Assembly: GCA_019163375.1 (NCBI GenBank)
Contig: JAFLKK010000007.1
Coordinates: forward strand, 1-64,000
Source: Paludibacter sp.
GTDB lineage: Bacteria; Bacteroidota; Bacteroidia; Bacteroidales; Paludibacteraceae
Direction of reading: 5' to 3'
DNA: 64,000 nt
The translations under genes were made by a program, and so were the position numbers. The notes under the pieces are model-generated. The model was given only the letters and a program-made list of their open reading frames with translations, did not search any database and was not told the DNA's origin. Positions 1 through 59,897 of this stretch are shown here, piece by piece (position 1 is the first letter of the stretch; the number at the start of each line of letters is the position of its first letter).

Positions 1-2361
1 GAATGTAGGTGAAGCCAATGGGGCTTTTGTATCCAATGCTGACTGGGTGGCAGCAGAAATGGGCAAACTTGATGTGGAAAGTGTTTTCAATACATTTCTA
101 TCATCTACCATATCACTAACTACAACAAGCTTATCGTTTACTGCACCCGTCTGAAGACCTGTTATTTTTAACGTATTAGTGTTATCAGTGTCAATTATCG
201 TGGGTTTATTTAAAGTACCTCCCAATGAAACAACACCATCTGCAGAACTCAAACCAGCACCTACATTAGTCAACACATTTACACCAACAGGAGTTGAAAT
301 ACCATTAACAGACGTAGTAATCAAACCATTACTACTAGATATTGCATTAGATAATATAATAGAGGCATGTGCCTGAACATTATTAACAGTGCTAGTAAGA
401 GCGTTTCCAGTCATCTCCAACTTATTAATCACTGGCTGCGGAGTATTCTCACTATACACCAAAGTTCCATCAGCATCAAATCCTATTTGTCTTGCTACTG
501 TACCTGCTAAAGGCTGGAGTTTAGCAATATCTCCATTTACTATTGAACGAATCTCGTTACCAGAACCATACAATCCATGAGACGTCACAACACCAACTGA
601 AGATGAAATCCCATTAACAGTACTTGTAATTGTGTTACCATTCATCACGAGTTGATTGGAGACAGTTGTGCTTGTAGAAGGCTGCATAACCAAATTTCCA
701 CTAGCGTCGAAACCAAGTGTATTAGTGATGACTGTAGTCGCACCAGGAGATAGCACAGACGTCGTACCATTTACCTTGCTAACAAACGTATTTCCACTAG
801 CAGTAAAGGAATTATCTAACAATAACGTTTTTGAACTTTGCCTTACTAGTTTACCACCGGCACCTAAAGTCGTAAAACCTAGCACTGCATCAACTGCGCC
901 GGGTAGCGGAGTTAGAGTTGCAGTTAAACCATTTACAGCACTGCTAATTGATAACGAACCAGAATTTAAATCATTAGATTTCACAATATCATCCTCTGAT
1001 GATACACCATTTACAGTGGATGTTATGGTATTATCAACTGTATAAATATCGTTACTAACAGGTACTTCCGTTTGATTCTGAATTCTCAAAACACCACCGC
1101 TATCAAATCCAAGAGTTTTAGTAATAGTACCAGATGTTGGTGTCAACGTTTTAGATATTCCATTAACAGAAGAAGTTATAGAGTTACTTCCACTAGTCAA
1201 ATCAATTGCAGTTACAATTTCGGCAGTTGCCTCTTTACCATTTACTGTAGTAGTAATTGTATTTCCTAAACTTTTAGTTGAGTTTGTAATTGAGAGAAGA
1301 CCTGGTTCTTGTTTTATCAATTTGCCCGAAGCATCAAAACCGAGGGTTTGATTAATTACACCAACATCTGGTGTCAAAGAATTAGAAACCCCATTTACAG
1401 TACTAATAATACTACCGGATTTTCCCTCTAAAGTATTTGAAAAAAGCTGTATGACGAGATCACCTGTGGAATTGAATCCTAAATTTTTTGATATAGTCCC
1501 TGGTTGAGGTTCCAATGTGGAAGGAACGTTATTTACAGTACTAATAATTTTATTTGAGACTCCCTTTAGAGTATTTGAGAAAGGCATAGTTACCAAATCT
1601 CCACTTGTGTTAAACCCCAGTGTTTTAGAAACAGTTCCGTCACCTGGAGCTAAGTCGGTTCTATATCCATTTACAATAGATGATAACTTTCCACTCGCTC
1701 CTTCTAAAACATTTGAAGTAATAACTTTAGCCGTGCTCGTAATATTATTAATGGTAGCAGTAATGTCATTATCGGTCACTTCAATTTTATTTGTACTTGC
1801 TGCCTCTTGTTTTACTAGGTTTCCGGAAGCATCAAAACCTATCGCATTTTTAATACTACCTAAACTGGGTATTAAATCTGTAGCAATGCCATTTACTTTA
1901 CTCGTCAGCTTATTACCCGAACCTATGAGTTTGACATCATTAATTATAGAGACACTTGTTCCAAGATTACCATTCACTGTTGTATACAGAATATTACCTG
2001 AACTTGTATTTGACACACTAGTATGAAGAGCATTATAATCTTCAATCAATTTAGGGAGTTCGTCTTTATTTAAAACTCGTACCCATTTTTTACTGTCAGT
2101 ACTCCAATAATAAATACCTTTAGGCTCTGTACCTGATTCATTGAAAATCATCATTCCACTCACAGGATTACCATCCAGCGTCCATGTTGTTTCATCATTG
2201 AGGGCAATTCGAGGTAAGCGTAGTCCTTTTGTGGAACTTTCTAATTCGAGTAAAGACCCTTCTTGTATAATTGTTGGATTGTCACCCACCTTATTCTGAG
2301 CACCAACAGACAACGCAAACACAACGAACAAAATTGCAAGAAACCATTTTTCTATTTTCAT
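1..2361 (-). CDS. Long exported repeat protein, tail-fibre/adhesin-like (partial, 3' end outside window)
   Basis: The minus strand is open from an ATG at 2361 to the left edge (787 codons, no stop). The N-terminus is a clear signal peptide (hydrophobic core, then SVGAQ). Residues of roughly 25-110 form a head containing WTLDGNPVSGMMIFNESG and YYWSTDSKKWVRV, typical of Bacteroidota surface proteins built on fibre stalks. From about residue 110 come imperfect repeats with the core VNG-x(5)-L-x-P-x2-GT(I/V)-x3-LGFD-ASGNLV; about eight copies are visible. The last visible residues read ALDTKAPLASPTF, a motif recurrent in phage tail fibres and Bacteroidota fibre proteins. Family knowledge suggests a trimeric stalk with a C-terminal tip or chaperone domain beyond the edge. 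Plus-strand open frames here are shadows. Function is inferred. Confidence 0.85.
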   Translation of the reverse strand, partial: MKIEKWFLAILFVVFALSVGAQNKVGDNPTIIQEGSLLELESSTKGLRLPRIALNDETTWTLDGNPVSGMMIFNESGTEPKGIYYWSTDSKKWVRVLNKDELPKLIEDYNALHTSVSNTSSGNILYTTVNGNLGTSVSIINDVKLIGSGNKLTSKVNGIATDLIPSLGSIKNAIGFDASGNLVKQEAASTNKIEVTDNDITATINNITSTAKVITSNVLEGASGKLSSIVNGYRTDLAPGDGTVSKTLGFNTSGDLVTMPFSNTLKGVSNKIISTVNNVPSTLEPQPGTISKNLGFNSTGDLVIQLFSNTLEGKSGSIISTVNGVSNSLTPDVGVINQTLGFDASGKLIKQEPGLLSITNSTKSLGNTITTTVNGKEATAEIVTAIDLTSGSNSITSSVNGISKTLTPTSGTITKTLGFDSGGVLRIQNQTEVPVSNDIYTVDNTITSTVNGVSSEDDIVKSNDLNSGSLSISSAVNGLTATLTPLPGAVDAVLGFTTLGAGGKLVRQSSKTLLLDNSFTASGNTFVSKVNGTTSVLSPGATTVITNTLGFDASGNLVMQPSTSTTVSNQLVMNGNTITSTVNGISSSVGVVTSHGLYGSGNEIRSIVNGDIAKLQPLAGTVARQIGFDADGTLVYSENTPQPVINKLEMTGNALTSTVNNVQAHASIILSNAISSSNGLITTSVNGISTPVGVNVLTNVGAGLSSADGVVSLGGTLNKPTIIDTDNTNTLKITGLQTGAVNDKLVVVSDMVDDRNVLKTLSTSSLPISAATQSALDTKAPLASPTF

Positions 2362-2543: not shown

Positions 2544-2741
2544 CTACTTCCCTGACTTTACTATACGGGAAAATGCAAAAGATAGTAAATCAGTAATTAT
2601 ACAAAACACAATAACAAAAATTGACAAAGCAAGAACTACAGGACCCACAACTACAACTTTAAACACTCTAAATAAAACAAGAAATTCACTTTGCGCTGCA
2701 TCTGCCCTAGAAAGTTTATCTAGCGTTTCTACTTGTTTCAT
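2544..2741 (-). CDS. Small membrane protein, unknown function
   Basis: 65 residues starting MKQVETLDKLSRADAAQSEF, then a long hydrophobic stretch (about residues 25-57) and a basic tail ending VKSGK. It looks like one or two membrane segments. I do not recognise a family. It lies between the repeat protein and the kinase genes on the same strand, 182 bases before the repeat-protein start. Two copies of the island's direct-repeat box lie 107-167 bases upstream of its ATG, which supports it being a real, regulated gene. Small size and AT-rich surroundings keep confidence moderate. Confidence 0.45.
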   Translation of the reverse strand: MKQVETLDKLSRADAAQSEFLVLFRVFKVVVVGPVVLALSIFVIVFCIITDLLSFAFSRIVKSGK

Positions 2742-2847
2742 ATGTTGTAATTATATAAATTTAAAATAGCTTTTATCTAGCTCAAGTATACAGCTTATGA
2801 TTCTTTACAAAATTACAAATATTAAACTTTCTTATCCTTTTTACTGA

Positions 2848-2864
2848 GGGTACATTAAGGGTAC
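2848..2864. promoter_or_regulatory. Direct-repeat box 1 (GGGTAC-N5-GGGTAC)
   Basis: Reads GGGTACATTAAGGGTAC. The two GGGTAC half-sites are 11 bp apart, one helical turn, as in tandem response-regulator sites. It is the first of four copies in the island and lies upstream of the small membrane gene ending at 2741. Operator role is inferred. Confidence 0.5.
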
Positions 2865-2891
2865 TAAAACCTCATTAAACCAACACAACAA

Positions 2892-2908
2892 GGGTACATT
2901 ATGGGTAC
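2892..2908. promoter_or_regulatory. Direct-repeat box 2 (GGGTAC-N5-GGGTAC)
   Basis: Reads GGGTACATTATGGGTAC. It is 44 bp (four 11-bp turns) from box 1, so both boxes would face the same side of the helix. Confidence 0.5.
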
Positions 2909-2931
2909 GTAGCCTCATCTCCATTATAAAT

Positions 2932-2966
2932 AAAAAAAAAAACGTTTATCTCAATTGAGATAAACG
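2932..2966 (-). terminator. Rho-independent terminator of histidine kinase 1
   Basis: A perfect 24-bp palindrome (2943-2966, arms CGTTTATCTCAA / TTGAGATAAACG) is followed on the minus strand by a run of about eleven T residues (2942-2932). It lies 36 bases past the kinase stop codon. Confidence 0.85.
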
Positions 2967-3001
2967 CCACAAACGCCTTAAGCTAGAAACTAAACTTTGA
3001 A

Positions 3002-4576
3002 TTAGCTCCCAGTTTTTTTCAACATCTCGAAATACTCCACATTCCCGCTCATAGAAGTCTTAATTACTTCATCTTTCCAATAAGTGAAGTTTGGGCTCGT
3101 ATATGTTGAAGAAGAGTCCAAAATACTGAGTAATTCTCCTGTTTGATAAATCAAAACATTTGCAATTTTTTTCTGACATATCCGAATCATGTCGTCTTCA
3201 TTTTCATTACATCTATACTTCTTTGGCGAATAGCGAATAGCCTCATCACTTTCGATTATTTCATTCGCTTTCACTGGAAGTTCGAACCAAACAAGGGCAC
3301 CTTCCGACAATTTAGATATAACTCCAATCTGACCGCCATGTGCTTCAACTACCAATTTGCAAAATGTCAAACCAATACCCGTTGAATCGCCATTATCTGA
3401 ATTCTGTGTTCTTCCTTGAAAATATTCACCAAAAATATGATCTACGTCTTTTGCAGATATTCCGCACCCATAATCCCTTATCTCAGCTCTTACTCTATTC
3501 ACATTTCTCGAAACATCAATGTCAATTTTTTCGTTGCATTTTGAAAATTTAATTGCATTGGTCAACACATTCACGAACACACGTTCAATCAAACGTTCAT
3601 CCATCTCAAGTACCGTATTTGTATTTTTCACGACACACTCTATTTTTTTTTCACATAATAGATAACTAACCTGGTTTATGGCATTGTTAATAACATCTGA
3701 TAGATCCACACTAACTAATTTCAACTCTAAATTACCACATTTACACTTTCTAATTGCTAAAATATCACACAACATTAATTGTATAGCTTTACTTGGCTCA
3801 ACAATATCTTCTCTTCGTATCGAGTCACTTTTAGTAGCGCTAACAATTCTACTTATCGGATTCTTAATGTCATGTAAAATCATATTAAACATTTTTTCTT
3901 TATAAATCAACAATCCTCTGGCTTCCTCCTTTTGATGAACTACTTCTTTTCCTAATAAGTCAAACTTCACGACATAGTAACTCAAAGAAGAATTTAAGAA
4001 ATACAAAAGAATAGTAATCCCCAAAAATATTACAATATCAATCACAATCAAAGGTTTAATCAATCGATCATTCAAGTAAAAAGAACAGAAACACATCCAT
4101 ATAACAGAGAGAGCTCCAACAATAAACACATGGAACTTATTTGCCAAAAGAGAGATTAATATTAGTAATACAATTAAAATTAAATGTGCATGAACATAAT
4201 ACAAATTAGCTGAATAAACACCCATATAAATAGAATATCCGAATTTCCCAAATACATTGAAAATCGATATATAGACAAACAATATACTTGACAGCCTGAT
4301 AGGCATTAAATTAAAAATCGTCAACACGCATAAAAAAAACAAAAAGATAATCGTGAGAAAAACTGCACATTCTAAAACAAAACAATGGTCATTATTATAA
4401 ATGTTTAGAAATTTCAAATACACCATAAATGCAAAAAAAAACACTACTTTGATCATTATTTGCTGAATTCTACCGCACACCTTCTCGATCTGATATATAT
4501 CAAGATCAGATATACCAATAAGACGATTAATATTAAATATTGAATCAAACTTAGACATATTATCTATATTCATCAA
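3002..4576 (-). CDS. Membrane sensor histidine kinase 1
   Basis: 524 residues. About six hydrophobic segments lie between residues 42 and 200, with short loops and no large periplasmic sensor. A linker leads to a HisKA/HATPase_c core: H box HDIKNP with His235, N box NVLTNAIKFS, G1 box DYGCGI and G2 box STGIGL. A tail of some 60 residues follows the kinase core and contains YWKDEVIKTSMSGNVEYF. The kinase at 6691-8286 has the same layout, the same His235 and a matching tail, so the two are paralogues. The likely partner is the LuxR-type regulator at 5316. A GGGTAC direct-repeat box lies 179 bases upstream and a strong terminator follows. The signal sensed is unknown. Confidence 0.9.
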   Translation of the reverse strand: MMNIDNMSKFDSIFNINRLIGISDLDIYQIEKVCGRIQQIMIKVVFFFAFMVYLKFLNIYNNDHCFVLECAVFLTIIFLFFLCVLTIFNLMPIRLSSILFVYISIFNVFGKFGYSIYMGVYSANLYYVHAHLILIVLLILISLLANKFHVFIVGALSVIWMCFCSFYLNDRLIKPLIVIDIVIFLGITILLYFLNSSLSYYVVKFDLLGKEVVHQKEEARGLLIYKEKMFNMILHDIKNPISRIVSATKSDSIRREDIVEPSKAIQLMLCDILAIRKCKCGNLELKLVSVDLSDVINNAINQVSYLLCEKKIECVVKNTNTVLEMDERLIERVFVNVLTNAIKFSKCNEKIDIDVSRNVNRVRAEIRDYGCGISAKDVDHIFGEYFQGRTQNSDNGDSTGIGLTFCKLVVEAHGGQIGVISKLSEGALVWFELPVKANEIIESDEAIRYSPKKYRCNENEDDMIRICQKKIANVLIYQTGELLSILDSSSTYTSPNFTYWKDEVIKTSMSGNVEYFEMLKKTGS

Positions 4577-5315
4577 TTAAACGCATCAATAAAAAAAAAC
4601 AATGAAATATGTTCTAATGCAAGGAAGAATTCTTTGCTTATATAAAACTACAGCGCTACAGTCTATCTTAAATACCATAATATAGCACAGTCATAATGCA
4701 AAATATTGATTATGTAAAAATACGCAACTAATAGATAATATCTAAATACACAAAGGGTACATATAGGGTACGGTGTGGTAATTAACTAAAGACACATCTA
4801 TTCACAGTAATTATATATTATATATTATATATCTGCAATATAATCAACAAAACATAGTTTTAAATAAAATTAGTCACATTTAAATATGAATTCAATAAGT
4901 AAGTACAAAACTAATCAAATCCAATATAGACTGGCAGTGCCCTGCTTGTGGTTTGGATTATTACCTCCGCAAACGTTTGCTACATTTGTCCGCTGAGCTT
5001 TAAACACAATGAAACCAAGCGCTTTATTTTTGGAAAAGATCTGATACTGGAGTAGTACTAAGTAATGAGAATTAATTGCTGTCGCATTTTGATTTTTATA
5101 AGACATATCTATCCGTATCATAAATAGGACTGCTGTTAACTCAAAAAAAATACGACATTAAATTCAAACTATTAACCGAGAACCCTTAACTCCAATTATT
5201 ATCATTATGAATCATTAGAAAATCGAACTTAGAATTTATATATAAACCTTGCTTAAATAAAATTCAATTTTACTATAAGGCTGGGTAGTAAATTTCATAC
5301 ATAAAACTCCTATCA
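4577..5315. other. AT-rich intergenic region with direct-repeat box 3
   Basis: This is the upstream region of kinase 1 and the downstream region of the response regulator. It holds the direct-repeat box at 4755-4771 and a short TATATTATATATTATATA-like tract near 4812-4830. A 68-codon minus-strand open frame at 4915-5121 cannot be supported as a gene. Confidence 0.5.
4755..4771. promoter_or_regulatory. Direct-repeat box 3 (GGGTAC-N5-GGGTAC)
   Basis: Reads GGGTACATATAGGGTAC and is preceded by ACAAA, as in box 4. It lies 179-195 bases upstream of the kinase 1 start codon. Confidence 0.5.
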
Positions 5316-6161
5316 CTACATATTTTGAATAAATAATTGTAGACTTTGATGCGGAAGTAAACCCAATTTCTTTTTTAGTCGCTTACGAGCTGTATTAACA
5401 GAGTCAGGAGACGTATAAGTAATGGTTGATATTTCCTTATTGCTCATAGCCAACTTTATAAAAGCACACAAACGCAATTCATTTGGAGTAAAACTTCCGA
5501 ATTCATTTTGGATTTTCTTTAAAAAAGCGTGATGAACAAAATCAAAATGAGATTCAAAATCATTCCAGTTTATTTGGTAAACTTTGGAATACAATTGAGA
5601 TTCCATCTTTATTAAGGCCTCATCTATTTGTTGATTCTTAGACTTGAGCACCTGCTCCTTTATTATTAATAATTGCTTGAGCGTAGACAACTTCAACTCG
5701 TTTAGCTGCTGAATACTAATCAATTTCTGGGCAAGTTGATTTTCCAATTCTCTTTTTTGTTGTTGAATTTCAAAATATGCTTTAGAAAGCTTAAGCATAT
5801 TTGTAACACGCGCACAAAGTTCAATTTCATCAAATGGCTTACGGAGATAATCCACCGCTCCTGAGATTAATGCATCATTGAGATGAGCGGAGTCAACCAT
5901 AATTCCTGAAGTAATTATAATAGGAATGTCCTCTGTTGATTGATCTTGCTTGAGGTGGATAGTAGCCTCAATTCCGTTCATTATAGGCATTTGCCAGTCC
6001 ATTATAATTAGATCTACCATTTCCGCAGTTGCGATTTCGCAAGCTGATTTTCCATTTCCAGTTGACATTATTTCATACTCTGGATTTTTAATCAAGATAT
6101 GCACAACATCCCTAATCATATTTATATCATCATCAACAATCAAGATTTTAAATTTTTTCAT
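5316..6161 (-). CDS. Two-component response regulator, receiver plus coiled coil plus LuxR-type HTH
   Basis: 281 residues. The receiver domain (about 1-120) has the acidic pocket D10-D12, phospho-acceptor Asp55 in DLIIMDWQMP, Thr84/Ser85 and Lys108 in RKP. A coiled coil of about 95 residues (Gln/Lys/Leu rich) follows. The C-terminal 60 residues are a LuxR/GerE-like helix-turn-helix (FTPNELRLCAFIKLAMSNKE, then a recognition helix ending RKRLKKKLGL). It sits between the two paralogous kinases on the same strand and is their most likely output protein. Its own upstream region carries no GGGTAC box, unlike the kinases, so it may be expressed independently. Confidence 0.9.
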   Translation of the reverse strand: MKKFKILIVDDDINMIRDVVHILIKNPEYEIMSTGNGKSACEIATAEMVDLIIMDWQMPIMNGIEATIHLKQDQSTEDIPIIITSGIMVDSAHLNDALISGAVDYLRKPFDEIELCARVTNMLKLSKAYFEIQQQKRELENQLAQKLISIQQLNELKLSTLKQLLIIKEQVLKSKNQQIDEALIKMESQLYSKVYQINWNDFESHFDFVHHAFLKKIQNEFGSFTPNELRLCAFIKLAMSNKEISTITYTSPDSVNTARKRLKKKLGLLPHQSLQLFIQNM

Positions 6162-6690
6162 AAAATTATATTTATATTTAAACTATAATTACTCATACAT
6201 TCAGACTAACCGGTTTACATTTTCAAATTTAAACTTCAAAAAAAAAAAAATAGCACGTATCTTATAAATTTGCCGCAATTATTTCTAACAATAAAATTAT
6301 AGCTGTAAGAATTTAACAATAATGAAAATAATATTACATATACCAGCCTATTATCAAACGTTTTTAACTTAACATTCTTTATAGCTAAATTATAATGTAT
6401 TTTTACAAAAGGATTAATCCAAGACAACAACATTAATACTGAATATACTACCAACCACTTTCTGTTTAATAGATAAACTAAACAATATAAAATATTTTTT
6501 CCAGTGTTCAAATACTTTCTAATACAATCCTTGATTTACTGTTAGTTAATCTGCATAAAGAATTCCAATAACATTAACACAAATTACACTTTTGCGTAAA
6601 TAAACTCCATATGTATGCAACTTATCATAGCACTTCAGATCGACCTAAGCTTTGATAATTATTACGCCCACAAATTTCAATTACTTGATT
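6162..6690. other. AT-rich intergenic region, no supported gene
   Basis: The region is upstream of the response regulator and downstream of kinase 2. The only open frame (minus 6236-6511, 91 codons) consists of AT-rich codons, starts in no recognisable context and ends in a poly-Phe tract from an A-run. I see no direct-repeat box and no clear terminator. Confidence 0.4.
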
Positions 6691-8286
6691 TTAAGACACA
6701 TTCTTACTCTTTAAATAATCAGGCATAAACATTAATTCTTTAAACCGATCTAAATTCCCAGTCATCGAGCTTTTCAGCACATCCTCCTTCCAAGAAATTA
6801 CAATAGGTAAACTAGATGGGGCACTATCGAAAACATTAAGAATTTTACTCGTTTCATAAACAGAAAAATTAGTAATTTTCAATTTATATTCGAATAAAAC
6901 CTCTTCATCCATATTTGTATATTCCAATTTATACGGGACTAATCGAGTTGTTTCATGCTGAGTCAATCTCTCTATTGACAAGATCGGTAATTCAACCCAA
7001 AACTGCGTCTTGGATGAATTTGATTCGACACCAATAAATCCACCATGCCCCTCTACCACTAACTTACAAAATGTAAGCCCAAGACCTGTCGATCGAGTGA
7101 TTCCTAAATTTTGCGATCTTATTTGAAAATATTTTTCAAATACGCGATCAATATTATCAGACTTAATTCCTTCGCCTCTATCTAGCACTACAATTCGAAC
7201 TTTATTATCCTTTTGTGTTATGTTTATGTCAATAATGCCATTCTCTTTTGAAAATTTAATTGCATTTGTAAGTAAATTTTCAAATACCCGTACTAATAGC
7301 TCAACATCTACTTCTAAACTACACTTTACATAAGCTCTTTTAAAAATTGATATTTTCTTATCTTCCAACAAATATTTAATCCTACTTATTGCAATATCAA
7401 TAAGCTCATCAATATCTCGAGTTAAAAATTCAAACACCATTTTTGATTCTTCCATTTTAGACACATCAAGAATATTCTCAACCTTCGTAAGCAATAATAG
7501 TGAAGATTCAACTATATCATCTTTTCTTATAACATCCTTTTGGGTAGCTGAAATAATTCGATTAATTGGATTTTTAATATCGTGCAGTATTACATTTAGC
7601 AGCCAATCCTTCATATTCATTAACTCAACCAACTCTAAATTCTGGGAATCTAAATGTTTAGTTTGTTTGGCGATTCTTAAATTGAATGTATGAATAATAC
7701 TATAAGTAAAATATACTGCTAAGGATACACCAATAAAAAAAACACTATCTAAAACTATCAAACTCCATAAATACGAATCATCTAAACAAATCGTTATAAA
7801 CCACAACCAAATAACAGAAACACAGCCAATATAAAGTATATTACGATAATTACTAACTAACCCTCCAATAGCTATGAATAATAGAAGTAAGAAATGTGTA
7901 TGTAAAAAAAAACTTACTACAAGTGGATGTTTATGTATCAAAAAATAAATATCTTTTACAAATACATTCGCAATAGGTATATATAGGAATAAACTTCCAG
8001 TTAATCTATCAGATATCGCTGATCTAAATTTAAATATATAAACCACAATCAAAGTCGTTAGTGAAATAACACTTAAGCTCATAAGAAAAAGATAATTTGC
8101 ACGAAAATATCCTTCGGCAATTACTATGTAAGCAATAATTGAGAAAAAGAATTGAAAATGGACTGCTAGTTTCCTAACCTGAATGTATATATTCATTTCG
8201 GAATTTACATAAGCGTCCTTAACATTAACCTTACTCTCAAGATATTCAATTAAATTGAATTTACTCAATATTCGTATATTCTTCAT
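6691..8286 (-). CDS. Membrane sensor histidine kinase 2 (paralogue of kinase 1)
   Basis: 531 residues, with about six membrane segments between residues 42 and 200. The kinase core has H box HDIKNPI with His235 (the same position as in kinase 1), N box NLLTNAIKFSKENG, G1 box DRGEGI and G2 box STGLGL. The tail after the kinase core contains SWKEDVLKSSMTGNLDRF, clearly related to the kinase 1 tail. No receiver or HPt domain is fused. It probably signals to the regulator at 5316-6161, so two sensors would feed one output. A GGGTAC direct-repeat box lies 234 bases upstream of the start codon. Confidence 0.9.
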   Translation of the reverse strand: MKNIRILSKFNLIEYLESKVNVKDAYVNSEMNIYIQVRKLAVHFQFFFSIIAYIVIAEGYFRANYLFLMSLSVISLTTLIVVYIFKFRSAISDRLTGSLFLYIPIANVFVKDIYFLIHKHPLVVSFFLHTHFLLLLFIAIGGLVSNYRNILYIGCVSVIWLWFITICLDDSYLWSLIVLDSVFFIGVSLAVYFTYSIIHTFNLRIAKQTKHLDSQNLELVELMNMKDWLLNVILHDIKNPINRIISATQKDVIRKDDIVESSLLLLTKVENILDVSKMEESKMVFEFLTRDIDELIDIAISRIKYLLEDKKISIFKRAYVKCSLEVDVELLVRVFENLLTNAIKFSKENGIIDINITQKDNKVRIVVLDRGEGIKSDNIDRVFEKYFQIRSQNLGITRSTGLGLTFCKLVVEGHGGFIGVESNSSKTQFWVELPILSIERLTQHETTRLVPYKLEYTNMDEEVLFEYKLKITNFSVYETSKILNVFDSAPSSLPIVISWKEDVLKSSMTGNLDRFKELMFMPDYLKSKNVS

Positions 8287-8519
8287 TACATTTAATTAAT
8301 CAATACAGTTAACTCATTTAATGTCTATTATTCAAATTATGCCAACATAATTATTTTTCTTAGTTAGTCAATTAAGGATACTGCTTGTATATATAACATG
8401 GCACTTCAATGCGATTAACCATATATAGCATCAAACAAAACAATTACAACACATACAACTACTTTTAACTTTGTGACTGTAAATTTATTTAAATCGTTTC
8501 AATTCGAAGCCAGAACAAA

Positions 8520-8536
8520 GGGTACATTTGGGGTAC
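8520..8536. promoter_or_regulatory. Direct-repeat box 4 (GGGTAC-N5-GGGTAC)
   Basis: Reads GGGTACATTTGGGGTAC after ACAAA. It is in the upstream region of kinase 2, 234-250 bases from its start codon. Confidence 0.5.
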
Positions 8537-9146: not shown

Positions 9147-9566
9147 TTGCACAAGGAAAATAAAAACAAGGCAATTCAGATAATCAACAAATTAAAAGAA
9201 TATTACAATTTAAAGAATGATGTTGATTTCGCAGAATATTTAGGAATTCCAAGTACTACTTTGTCTAGTTGGAAATCTAGAGATAGTATTGATTATGATT
9301 TGGTATACTCAAAATGCGTTGGAATAGACGCAAATTGGATACTGACGGGCGCCGGAAACATGTTAATTAGCACGCGTGAAAATTCCCAAAATTCGTTACT
9401 AAAGATGGAAGATAATATCAAAAATAAGTATATTTTACAGCTAGAGAATGAAAATAGAAGATTACTGGTAGATAATGAAAGGAAGCAAGAGCTAATAAAT
9501 CTCTTTATAAACGGCGATATAACGACATCGAAAAGAAAGAAACTTACAAAAAGAATGGTAATATAA
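9147..9566 (+). CDS. CI-repressor-like helix-turn-helix protein with coiled coil
   Basis: 139 residues. Residues about 8-70 resemble the Bacteroidota version of the phage CI repressor HTH domain (DFAEYLGIPSTTLSSWKSR, then CVGIDANWILTGAGNM). Residues about 85-125 are a charged heptad-like helix (LENENRRLLVDNERKQ), probably for dimerisation; there is no peptidase domain. No in-frame ATG or GTG lies near the N-terminus and a stop (TAA 9117) bounds the frame, so the start is probably the TTG at 9147, right after a T-tract. It stands alone on the plus strand, divergent from kinase 2. Such proteins usually regulate neighbouring or mobile genes; the target here is unknown. Confidence 0.8.
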   Translation: MHKENKNKAIQIINKLKEYYNLKNDVDFAEYLGIPSTTLSSWKSRDSIDYDLVYSKCVGIDANWILTGAGNMLISTRENSQNSLLKMEDNIKNKYILQLENENRRLLVDNERKQELINLFINGDITTSKRKKLTKRMVI

Positions 9567-24603: not shown

Positions 24604-25974
24604 ATGCTCGAAACACATAAAGTAAACGTTCTGAATCGTTTTGATATAGGTGGTTGTAGTCGTTTTGTACTAATCGCCGGTCCTTGCGCCATCGAATCTG
24701 AAGAAATGACCATGGAAGTTGCTGCCAAATTGAAAGAAATTTGTCAGGAATTAAACATTCATCTCATTTTTAAATCATCTTTCGACAAAGCCAACCGTTC
24801 TTCGGTAAAATCACCCCGTGGATTGGGAATGAAACGCGGTCTTGAAATTCTTCAACGCGTGAAAACAGAACTGGGCCTGCCTATCGTTACCGATGTGCAT
24901 GAAACATGGCAATGCGCCCCCGTGGCTGAGGTTGCCGACATGCTTCAGATTCCGGCTTTTCTGTCCCGACAAACTGATTTATTGGTTGCAGCTGCTCAAA
25001 CCGGAAAAATTGTCAACGTAAAAAAAGGACAGTTTATGGCTCCATGGGATATGAAAAATGTGATTGATAAGCTGCGTGATTCAGGCAATGAGAATATTTT
25101 GCTTTGCGAACGCGGCTCAAGTTTTGGCTACAACAATCTAGTGGTGGATATGACAGGCTTGGTAGAAATGCGGAGCTATGGTTTCCCTGTCGTTTTCGAT
25201 GCTACGCATGCAGTACAGAAACCGGGCGGTCAGGGAACCTCAACCGGTGGAAACCGCGAAATGGTACCATATCTTATGCGTGCTGCACTTGCTGTTGGCG
25301 TAGATGCCGTGTTTGCAGAAGTTCACCCCGATCCGGATCATGCATTCTCCGATGGACCGAATCAAATCTATCTTTCAAAAATAAAAGAGATTCTGGAACA
25401 AGCGATTGCCATTGACAATATTACCAAAGGAATTTCAGCAAAGTCAACAGTAAACAGTCAGCAGTCGACAGAAAAAGCTAAAGTGATAACCACGGAACAG
25501 AGAATGAAAAATATAAAACTTTTTCTCACAGACGTGGATGGCGTTTTGACAGATGCAGGAATGTACTATTCTGAAGCTGGTGATGAATTAAAAAAATTCA
25601 ATACGCACGACGGAATGGGTTTACAACTTATCCGCGAGAAAGGCATCAAGACCGGAATCGTCACTTCCGAAAACACTAAAATGGTGGAACGTCGCTTCAA
25701 TAAATTGAAATTAGATTACCTTTATCAAGGAAAACGTGAGGGCGGCAAACTGGCTTCGGTAAAAGAAATATGCGAAAAAGAAGGCATCTCACTATCAGAA
25801 GTTGCCTACATTGGAGATGACGTAAATTGCTTTGAACTGCTTTCGAACGTTGGTTTAGCTGCATGCCCTGCCAATGCTCTGACAGCCATCAAAAACATCC
25901 CCGGGATTATTCAAATGAATAAAAAAGGAGGAGAAGGCTGCGTAAGAGAATTTATTGAAATGATCATCAAATAA
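24604..25974 (+). CDS. kdsA-kdsC: Fused KDO-8-phosphate synthase / KDO-8-phosphate phosphatase
   Basis: 456 residues from the ATG at 24604; an upstream TTG at 24562 lies inside the preceding terminator and is rejected. Residues about 15-275 are Kds[54 protein letters not shown] and [17 protein letters not shown]. It condenses phosphoenolpyruvate with arabinose 5-phosphate. Residues 301-456 are KdsC, a C0-type HAD phosphatase: [22 protein letters not shown], and [10 protein letters not shown]. It removes the phosphate from KDO-8-P. The linker (about 277-300, with [13 protein letters not shown]) is encoded by a GTCAACAGT-type dispersed repeat at 25443-25470, and an in-frame ATG (25504) starts the KdsC part. 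The two are usually separate genes. kdsD follows 19 bases later. Confidence 0.93.
25443..25470 (+). repeat. GTCAACAGT-type repeat inside the kdsA-kdsC linker
   Basis: Three degenerate units (GTCAACAGT, AAACAGTCA, GCAGTCGACA) in frame between the two enzyme domains, the same family as the intergenic repeats at 22571 and 61146. Confidence 0.6.
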
Positions 25975-45399: not shown

Positions 45400-46281
45400 A
45401 TGGTGAACGAATTTCTGCAATATTTACAGTATGAAAAGAACTATTCTTTTCATACTGTTTTGTCATATCGTACCGACTTGTATCAGTTTTGCGACTTCCT
45501 TGCTCTCAAACCACAAGAAATCAACCCGTTAAATGTCAGCTCGCAGCAAATTCAGCAGTGGACATTATCATTAATGTCGGCTAAGATTTCGGCACGTAGT
45601 CTTTCACGCAAAATATCGACACTCAAATCTTTTTGGAAATTTCTACTCGTTCGCGGACTTGCAACACAAGACCCCACATTAAAAATTATTCTTCCAAAAA
45701 CAAAAAAGCCCATTCCAGCGTTTTTTAAAGAAAAGGAGATGGACAGCGTATTAGACAACAAAATCAGTCCCAATGATTTTAAGATCACCAGAGATTTGCT
45801 TATCATATCCATTTTTTACCAAACAGGAATACGACTTGCCGAACTCATTTCGATAGAAGACAAAGATGTAAATATGACAGATGGAAATTTGCGAGTAACA
45901 GGAAAAAGAAACAAACAACGCATTATTCCAATAAGCGATGTATTATGCAAAGAAATATCTGAATACATTGAATTACGCAATAGCAAGCTTGAAATCCTAG
46001 CTGCAAATTTGTTTTTAAGAGAAAATGGGCAAAAGCTTTACCCAAAGTTGATTTACAACATGGTTCATAATACAATGTCAGGAGTAAGCAGCCTACACAA
46101 GAGAAGCCCACACGTGCTTCGACACACATTCGCCACAAGTATACTTAATGGAGGAGCAGACATTAACGCAGTAAAAGATCTACTGGGACATAGTAGTCTT
46201 GCGGCTACACAAGTATACACTCACACGAGTTTTGAGGAATTAAACAATATATATAAACATGCTCATCCGAGAGCAAAATAA
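45400..46281 (+). CDS. xerC: Tyrosine recombinase XerC-type
   Basis: 293 residues. An N-terminal SAM-like core-binding domain (1-90, FLQYLQYEKNYSFHTVLSYR) precedes the catalytic domain (about 105-293) with Arg in TGIRLAELIS, a Lys in the beta-hairpin TGKRNKQRIIP, His-x2-Arg in HVLRHTFATSIL, His in LLGHSSLAATQVYTH and the nucleophile Tyr in the same block. It resolves chromosome dimers at dif with its partner XerD. Position between rpsU and hpf is the housekeeping one; it is not a mobile-element integrase. Confidence 0.93.
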   Translation: MVNEFLQYLQYEKNYSFHTVLSYRTDLYQFCDFLALKPQEINPLNVSSQQIQQWTLSLMSAKISARSLSRKISTLKSFWKFLLVRGLATQDPTLKIILPKTKKPIPAFFKEKEMDSVLDNKISPNDFKITRDLLIISIFYQTGIRLAELISIEDKDVNMTDGNLRVTGKRNKQRIIPISDVLCKEISEYIELRNSKLEILAANLFLRENGQKLYPKLIYNMVHNTMSGVSSLHKRSPHVLRHTFATSILNGGADINAVKDLLGHSSLAATQVYTHTSFEELNNIYKHAHPRAK

Positions 46282-58600: not shown

Positions 58601-59897
58601 TACACAAAATATTCCTTACGGTTCTAAACTGTACGTTAAAGACGGTGAAGTAGCAACAAAAGGCCAAATGGTCTGCGAATGGGATCCATTTAACGCGGTA
58701 ATTATTTCTGAAACTGAAGGTAAAATTGAGTTTGAAGATGTAATTGAAAACGTTACCTTTAAGGCTGAAGCCGATGAGGCAACAGGTCTGCGTGAAAAGA
58801 TTATTATCGAAACTAAAGATCGTAACAAGGTTCCAAGTGCACACATTGTGTCTAAAGATGGTTCTATATTACGTACTTATAGCTTACCGGTGGGTGCCCA
58901 CTTGGTACTTGACAATGGCGATAAAATCAAAATGGGTCAGATGTTGGTAAAAATACCTCGTGCCGTTGGTAAAGCAGGTGATATTACCGGTGGTCTTCCA
59001 CGTGTGACTGAATTATTCGAAGCTCGTAACCCTTCAAATCCTGCTGTAGTAGCCGAAATTGATGGTGAGGTAACCTTCGGAAAAATCAAACGTGGTAACC
59101 GCGAATTGACTGTAACTTCGAAAACCGGTGAGGTTAAGAAATACATGATTCCATTATCAAGACAAATTCTTGTTCAGGAAAATGACTTTGTACGTGCAGG
59201 CATTCCACTTTCGGAAGGTGCAACTACTCCTTCGGATATCTTATTAATCAAAGGACCTACTGCGGTTCAGGATTATATTGTAAACGAAGTTCAGGATGTA
59301 TACCGTCTGCAAGGTGTAAAAATCAATGATAAGCACTTTGAGGTAATTGTACGTCAAATGATGCGTAAAGTTGAGATTTTGGAACAAGGTGATACTCGTT
59401 TCTTAGAAAAACAAATTATCGGCAAAAACGATTTCATGGAAGAAAATGATCGTATTTGGGGTAAAAAAGTAATTCTGGATGCAGGTGATTCAACAACCTT
59501 GAAACCGGGTCAAATCATTACACCACGTAAATTGCGCGATGAGAACAGTATGTTGAAACGTCGTGATATGAAATTGGTAGAAACGCGTGATGCGATTGCT
59601 GCTACTTCAAATCAGATTTTACAAGGTATTACCCGTGCTGCACTTCAAACCAACAGCTTTATGTCGGCTGCTTCGTTCCAGGAAACTACAAAAGTATTGA
59701 ACGATGCTGCTATTAATGGTAAAGTTGACAGACTAGAAGGTTTGAAAGAGAATGTTATTTGTGGACACTTGATTCCTGCCGGAACAGGTCAACGTGAATT
59801 CGATAAAATCGTAGTTTTTTCACGCGATGAATATGAGAAAAAAGTTGATGCCCGCAAAAGCGTTATAGAAGTTGGTGGGATTGAATCGGAAGATTAA
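55602..59897 (+). CDS. rpoC: RNA polymerase subunit beta'
   Basis: 1431 residues. The zinc-binding N-terminus has [20 protein letters not shown], the catalytic loop is [16 protein letters not shown], the trigger loop region follows ([20 protein letters not shown]), and the second zinc site has [14 protein letters not shown]. Ends with [10 protein letters not shown] terminator follows. No frameshift or insertion. Confidence 0.98.

Follow-up and report, generated by a model that had tools for sequence, protein, structure and literature searches.

GTACCC direct repeats in a Paludibacter genome as candidate operators of a two-component system acting on kinase and surface-protein genes

A 17-bp direct repeat, read on the plus strand as GGGTAC-N5-GGGTAC, occurs four times near the start of contig C2 of the Paludibacter sp. 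genome G000 (4.66 Mb, 29 contigs), in a region encoding two similar histidine kinases and a response regulator. This raises the question of what the repeats do, which protein reads them and which genes they serve. The stretch analysed, here called the window, comprises the first 64 kb of this contig. The repeats are probably operators of a two-component system which would activate its kinase genes and genes for exported surface proteins, a reading to which we assign a probability of about three in four. A first-pass annotation of the window had also taken the repeats for operators; this is supported by few and clustered copies, by -7 promoter boxes at a distance of 32-33 bp and by a position before kinase and exported-protein genes.

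The four exact copies start at 2848, 2892, 4755 and 8520, as annotated before, and on the plus strand the middle begins with AT in all four. The statement that no further paired copy exists also holds: the window is without any one-mismatch copy and its sole two-mismatch match lies at 58892, where 100 dinucleotide shuffles of the window gave a mean of 0.88 matches at ≤ 2 mismatches (maximum five, in one shuffle). The plus-strand description is right as to coordinates, but it is the minus strand that carries the promoter boxes and target genes. On that strand each copy is GTACCC-N5-GTACCC, and all window features named below belong to it unless stated otherwise. A pattern scan placed the promoter-proximal copy GTACCC-TTAAT-GTACCC at 2848..2864 and the distal copy at 2892..2908. 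This tandem pair is spaced 44 bp start to start, as had been claimed, with half-site steps of 11-33-11, and the -7 promoter box TAATTTTG (2808..2815) follows 32 bp past the proximal copy. Upstream of kinase 1, the operator GTACCC-TATAT-GTACCC (4755..4771) is followed at the same distance by the -7-like box TATTTTTA (4715..4722), and upstream of kinase 2, GTACCC-CAAAT-GTACCC (8520..8536) is followed, again at 32 bp, by TAAATTTA (8480..8487).

The genome scan proposed in the first-pass annotation was run and gave few copies in two clusters, preceding both kinases and exported-protein genes. The whole genome contains seven exact copies, compared to none for the reversed control pattern; the three outside the window are all on contig C8, one of them with the core AATGG. 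Eight places have one mismatch, of which four with an AT-starting core are all on C8 and four with unrelated middles are on C4, C10, C12 and C14. The two-mismatch level is background (120 matches vs 156 in the control). Since these matches and the four places with unrelated middles can be discounted, about 11 sites are credible (seven exact, four with one mismatch), confined to the start of C2 or to C8:12-75 kb. The window pattern is exactly matched in 15 of 100 genomes scanned; leaving out G000, G039 and G043, the other 12 have one or two copies each, with other cores.

Promoter geometry was examined for 25 copies with ≤ 1 mismatch, 11 in G000 and 14 on fetched pieces of the congener G039. 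Six distal tandem members and one copy cut by a contig end were set aside, leaving 18 evaluable copies. TAnnTTT is found 32-33 bp downstream of the second half-site in 17 of the 18 (16 at exactly 32 bp, one at 33 bp), some of the G039 copies (L060, L061) being near-identical and hence non-independent; the sole misfit is G039 L059:9606. Counted over all 25 copies, TAnnTTT stands at exactly 32 bp in 16 and the full TAnnTTTG in 13, and in both kinase promoters the box reads TAnnTTTA. Excerpts of two reports give TAnnTTTG as the -7 consensus of the Bacteroidota sigma-A (PMC7366714; PMC9723704), and in the latter the box is placed at -12 to -5. The operator would accordingly be situated at about -61 to -45 relative to the transcription start. 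Because the spacing between operator and box is fixed, which suits contact with RNA polymerase, the site is presumably of the activator type. The distance from operator to start codon is often 180-340 bp (C8:12-46 kb and the window), so that the leaders would be long and could hold RNA regulation.

The window sites precede the genes of kinase 2, of kinase 1, and of a 65-aa protein together with a large repeat protein. Histidine kinase 1 (3002..4576) has a HATPase_c domain and an N-terminal half which is hydrophobic by eye; histidine kinase 2 (6691..8286) also carries HATPase_c and is similar to it. Both share a C-terminal extension of ~85 residues past the ATPase domain, with a W..(D/E)V..S.(M)(S/T)GN...F motif and without a Pfam match. 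The tandem pair is indeed upstream of a small membrane gene, as stated earlier, which encodes the 65-aa membrane-like protein and is the first open reading frame (ORF) past the tandem operators (2544..2741). The second ORF had been omitted: it encodes a large repeat protein (1..2361; 787+ aa) with a signal-peptide-like start and runs off the contig start.

Over the genome, the copies mostly precede genes with signal-peptide-like starts (by eye). Several target proteins on C8 share an N-terminal KG(L/V)xxP(R/Q)V-type motif, and one target cluster there encodes Peptidase_S74, CHU_C/type IX secretion system (T9SS) type B, PorP_SprF and OmpA proteins. Lipoprotein-like genes are also among the C8 targets; the site at 45468 is upstream of a protein of 237 aa whose start is signal-peptide-like, and the site at 25785 has only short ORFs downstream.

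The proposed binder of the repeats is the response regulator encoded at 5316..6161, which consists of a receiver domain (phosphoacceptor position D55), a linker and a probable NarL/FixJ-like helix-turn-helix (HTH) domain. The receiver domain matches PF00072 with an E-value of 8.8e-23, and D55 and K108 are invariant in 17 sequences. When the family profile was compared to HTH domains, weak matches to DevR (E 0.002), EvgA (0.0099), VraR (0.055) and NarL (0.44) were obtained. At an E-value of 0.001, Pfam reports Response_reg alone for this protein and neither GerE, nor a winged helix (Trans_reg_C), nor a LytTR domain. Direct repeats spaced by one turn are typically those of winged-helix regulators of the PhoB/OmpR kind, and NarL-type sites are inverted or mixed heptamers. 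The previous suggestion of a dimeric response regulator bound head to tail is retained for the operator role and revised for the protein, whose HTH domain seems to be NarL/FixJ-like. The pho box of PhoB, an OmpR-family regulator, consists of head-to-tail direct repeats with an 11-bp period and an A/T-rich spacer upstream of the promoter. The direct half-sites found here likewise have an 11-bp period and an A/T-rich spacer upstream of a promoter; they differ in the half-sites themselves, in the apparently NarL/FixJ-like HTH domain of the regulator and in the Bacteroidota TAnnTTTG type of promoter. Compared to DevR, EvgA, VraR and NarL, the regulator shares the receiver domain and probably the HTH domain, the latter being matched weakly by profile, and differs by its longer linker and its proposed phased direct-repeat operators.

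Binding of the repeats by this NarL-type regulator is what we infer, and the following course of events would result. A signal would activate one or both kinases, which would phosphorylate the regulator. The regulator would occupy two GTACCC half-sites head to tail, spaced by a single helical turn and located at about -61 to -45, and would recruit RNA polymerase to the -7 box starting 32 bp downstream. Targets would be the two kinase genes, giving positive feedback, and exported surface-protein genes including one PorP/SprF-OmpA-T9SS cargo cluster. Further dimers could be taken up on the same face of the DNA by the additional copies, whose spacing equals or approaches multiples of 11 bp. Position alone does not fix the sign of regulation, and the same regulator might bind the sites and repress. 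We consider this unlikely, as the proximal site keeps a distance of 32 bp to the -7 box in almost every evaluable copy and thus lies ahead of the core promoter.

The operator idea is further supported by relatives of the regulator, which have similar period-11 repeats nearby. Loci with stand-alone relatives were collected (n = 51) and 48 were kept after removing three duplicates. Exact hexamer direct repeats with periods of 6-22 were counted if located outside ORFs of ≥ 150 aa and 28-36 bp before TAnnTTT, a distance range picked once the first loci were known. Period 11 gave 20 sites in 13 loci, and the 16 other periods total 44 (mean 2.75, maximum 7 at period 21). Six of the 20 period-11 sites resemble chance or secondary matches (L109 1192 and 12792, L105 11013 minus, L225, L227 9927, L239). 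Using the stricter TAnnTTTG box, 10 period-11 sites were obtained for the 20 earlier loci vs 0-5 for other periods. When a motif-guided search was added, credible operators were recognised at 18 of the 48 loci: the window, L097-L100, L103, L104, L105, L107, L109, L112, L223, L224, L227, L230, L240, L247 and L253. Irregular among them are L240 (no box detected), L098 (longer spacing), L103 (mixing GTACCC and GTCCAC) and L253 (the half-site itself palindromic).

In related Bacteroidales the 11-base layout appears to be shared, the DNA words being others. GTACCC half-sites are present in G000, G039 (away from its regulator), G043, G146, G223 and G399, GTACC in G076, GCTTCC in G016 and G086, GTAGTG in G069 and GTTAAC in G226. 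GTCC-type half-sites are found in G061, in a second system of G000, and in G188, G001, G046, G004, G410 and G183. The tandem arrays mostly keep the 11-bp lattice: besides the 11-33-11 of the window, five arrays of G039 and that of G016 show 11-22-11, G399 has five steps of 11, G146 has 11-12-10 and G223 has 11-12-11. The complete one-contig genome G016, of the same genus, has in order a kinase gene with an upstream site, the regulator gene and a tandem site, which is followed by a BIG-like gene (61% identity over 69 residues) and then by a PorP/SprF gene; here GCTTCC replaces GTACCC in an array like the GTACCC arrays of G039. At ≤ 1 mismatch and with this one fixed spacer, GCTTCCTTTTTGCTTCC was found in 9 of 100 relatives, with two places in G016. 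Ten downstream proteins, several of them truncated by contig ends, were selected for a domain scan, which found DUF285/PARCEL repeats in six, a T9SS sorting domain in four and SprB repeats in one. DUF285/PARCEL proteins, some with a T9SS sorting domain, are encoded downstream of the operators at L223, L224, L097, L227, L247 and L103; an excerpt of PMC2996958 describes such repeats from Mollicutes and scattered other microbes. Identical operators at L247:633 and L247:4777 precede two genes with signal-peptide-like starts, which suggests duplication of a promoter region.

Several results, given here and in the next two paragraphs, weigh against the operators being those of this regulator family. 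For the 31 later loci the stricter box gave four period-11 sites vs 0-3 for other periods, so that this fresh set alone is weakly enriched; its matches at L224, L227 and L230 belong to the same sequence class. No credible site was recognised at 30 of the 48 regulator loci. A scan of genome contigs for relatives was driven by the receiver domain, and 8 of its 80 loci were used; five of these eight have no period-11 match (L114, L117, L118, L123, L134). In G039 the copies lie elsewhere, none within 20 kb around its regulator. Finally, the autoregulated circuit suggested by the first-pass annotation is supported for the kinases, by box position only; the regulator gene at 5316-6161 has no box of its own.

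Order-wide counts add to these points, the raw patterns showing no clear excess over their reversed controls. GTACCNNNTTTGTACC occurs at 68 places in 57 of 393 genomes vs ~55 control matches, and GTCCYCTTTTTGTCC at six places in five of 393 genomes vs ~28 control matches. The GTCCYCTTTTTGTCC places comprise the known one in G188; G125:C11, with a box at 32 bp and the regulator 4.7 kb away; G409, 188 bp past a TPR-type family gene and without a clear box; G203 and G125:C71, with no regulator on the fetched piece; and G123, inside a gene. GTACCCTTTTTGTACC or GTACCCCTTTTGTACC was found in four genomes; the places in G146, G223 and G399 adjoin a family regulator, and for G106 none is present on its 6-kb piece. 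GTACCCTATTTGTACC has nine places in eight genomes, and of the four fetched (L265, L268, L269, L283) none has TAnnTTT at 30-34 bp and three have TACTTTCTG at 32-33 bp. Thirty GTACCNNNTTTGTACC places were fetched, and in seven of them (L256, L260, L265, L268, L269, L270, L274) a TACTTTCTG-like box follows at 31-34 bp. GTACC repeats at promoter-like spacing are thus not confined to the regulator family. In these seven, the recurring element is GTACC-N6-GTACC, 31-34 bp, a TTACTTTCTG-like box and often then TATCGGAAAGT; it is perhaps a separate promoter or mobile-element class. Five of the 30 places (L257, L259, L266, L268, L271) are upstream of genes whose Cys-rich start resembles, by eye, excisionases or DNA-binding proteins of mobile elements.

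Covariation of operator and regulator, which counts in part for the reading, was assessed by a Mantel test for 20 regulator-operator pairs using proximal half-sites. Differences between half-sites correlate with those over recognition-helix residues 1-10 (r 0.47, p 0.0002), and almost equally with the linker (r 0.43) and the receiver (r 0.39); the relation is thus not helix-specific. The 45 residues before the helix show no clear correlation (r 0.13, p 0.16). The helix correlation persists when the receiver is controlled for (r 0.34, p 0.0002), as it does for the linker (r 0.29, p 0.0004), and that of the linker given the helix is r 0.21 (p 0.04). For distal half-sites the values are 0.38 (helix) and 0.41 (linker), and restricting the set to the 18 adjacent pairs puts linker (0.53) and receiver (0.50) above the helix (0.48). 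Operators therefore change together with regulators, without the helix being singled out; much of the covariation reflects shared ancestry, as linker and receiver covary about as well as the helix. A residue code in which R at helix position 9 goes with GTA and non-R with GTC matched the initial 14 pairs and agreed with the GTCC-type sites at L100, L103, L112, L247 and L240; it was rejected, since it fails for G125 and G409.

The sites may be operators bound by another protein, such as the CI-like HTH protein (9147..9566, plus strand), the PAS-LuxR protein (C8:36084-36803) or one encoded elsewhere. The two named candidates are DNA-binding and encoded in the same two contig regions as the sites. 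Using tblastn, relatives were sought on 26 pieces of ≤ 20 kb (18 regulator loci and eight G039 operator pieces; no search was made in the rest of those genomes). On these, the CI-like protein has no relative, and the PAS-LuxR protein has only a weak HTH match, inside the L112 regulator itself; neither was kept as binder. The presence of the regulator at the 18 loci is not independent evidence, because the loci were selected for it. Binding by another protein is judged quite improbable, for the CI-like protein as well. The alternative of recombination, inversion or integration sites, e.g. arm-type sites of a tyrosine recombinase, had been offered before and is very improbable: a probable mobile element at C8:66.6-75.0 kb, which by eye comprises genes like those for integrase, primase and mobilisation, has its last gene 145 bp away from one of the 11 copies (C8:75181), G039 copies on seven of eight contigs lie within ~4 kb of a contig end, and some GTACC-N6-GTACC places precede the excisionase-like genes mentioned above, but the G000 copies do not flank segments as pairs, have a fixed distance to the box and are upstream of kinase and surface-protein genes, and repetitive surface genes could also account for the contig ends in G039.

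With operators of the NarL-like regulator as the preferred reading, a wider scheme may be drawn for the Bacteroidales, tentatively and with somewhat less than an even chance: private two-component circuits would form a large family there, and each NarL-like paralogue would read its own 6-bp address on the shared 11-bp lattice 32 bp before the box and drive its own surface-protein module (PorP/SprF-linked, PARCEL or SprB), address and regulator co-evolving. If so, several such circuits would coexist in one cell without cross-talk. An operator with fixed promoter spacing would allow regulons of surface and T9SS-linked proteins to be predicted from Bacteroidota sequence alone and would tie the regulator family to its targets. 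The pairs would also form a natural series for studying how NarL-type regulators choose their DNA and how paralogous circuits stay separate.

FimS-FimR of Porphyromonas gingivalis is a Bacteroidota two-component system controlling surface structures. Unlike FimS, the window kinases score 67.5 and 74.8 bits with NCBIfam NF053520, which has a cutoff of 600. Some of the downstream genes resemble known PorP/SprF, SprB and T9SS clusters in carrying PorP_SprF, OmpA, T9SS sorting domains, SprB or PARCEL/DUF285 repeats; operator-regulator circuits of this form were not found for such genes in the titles and abstract openings searched.

The starts of C2 (window 1-2361) and C8 (C8:3-677) both fall in reading frames whose repeat modules (PISAATQSALDTK) are alike; hence, the two contigs may be adjacent, the assembly being broken within a repetitive gene. 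The G039 contigs with copies near an end, as in the window, are C32, C49, C71, C78, C81, C104 and C110, which suggests repetitive neighbouring genes there as well. In G039 L060:295-402, a segment of ~91 bp comprising promoter and operator is tandemly duplicated, and similar copies are present at L061 and L063.

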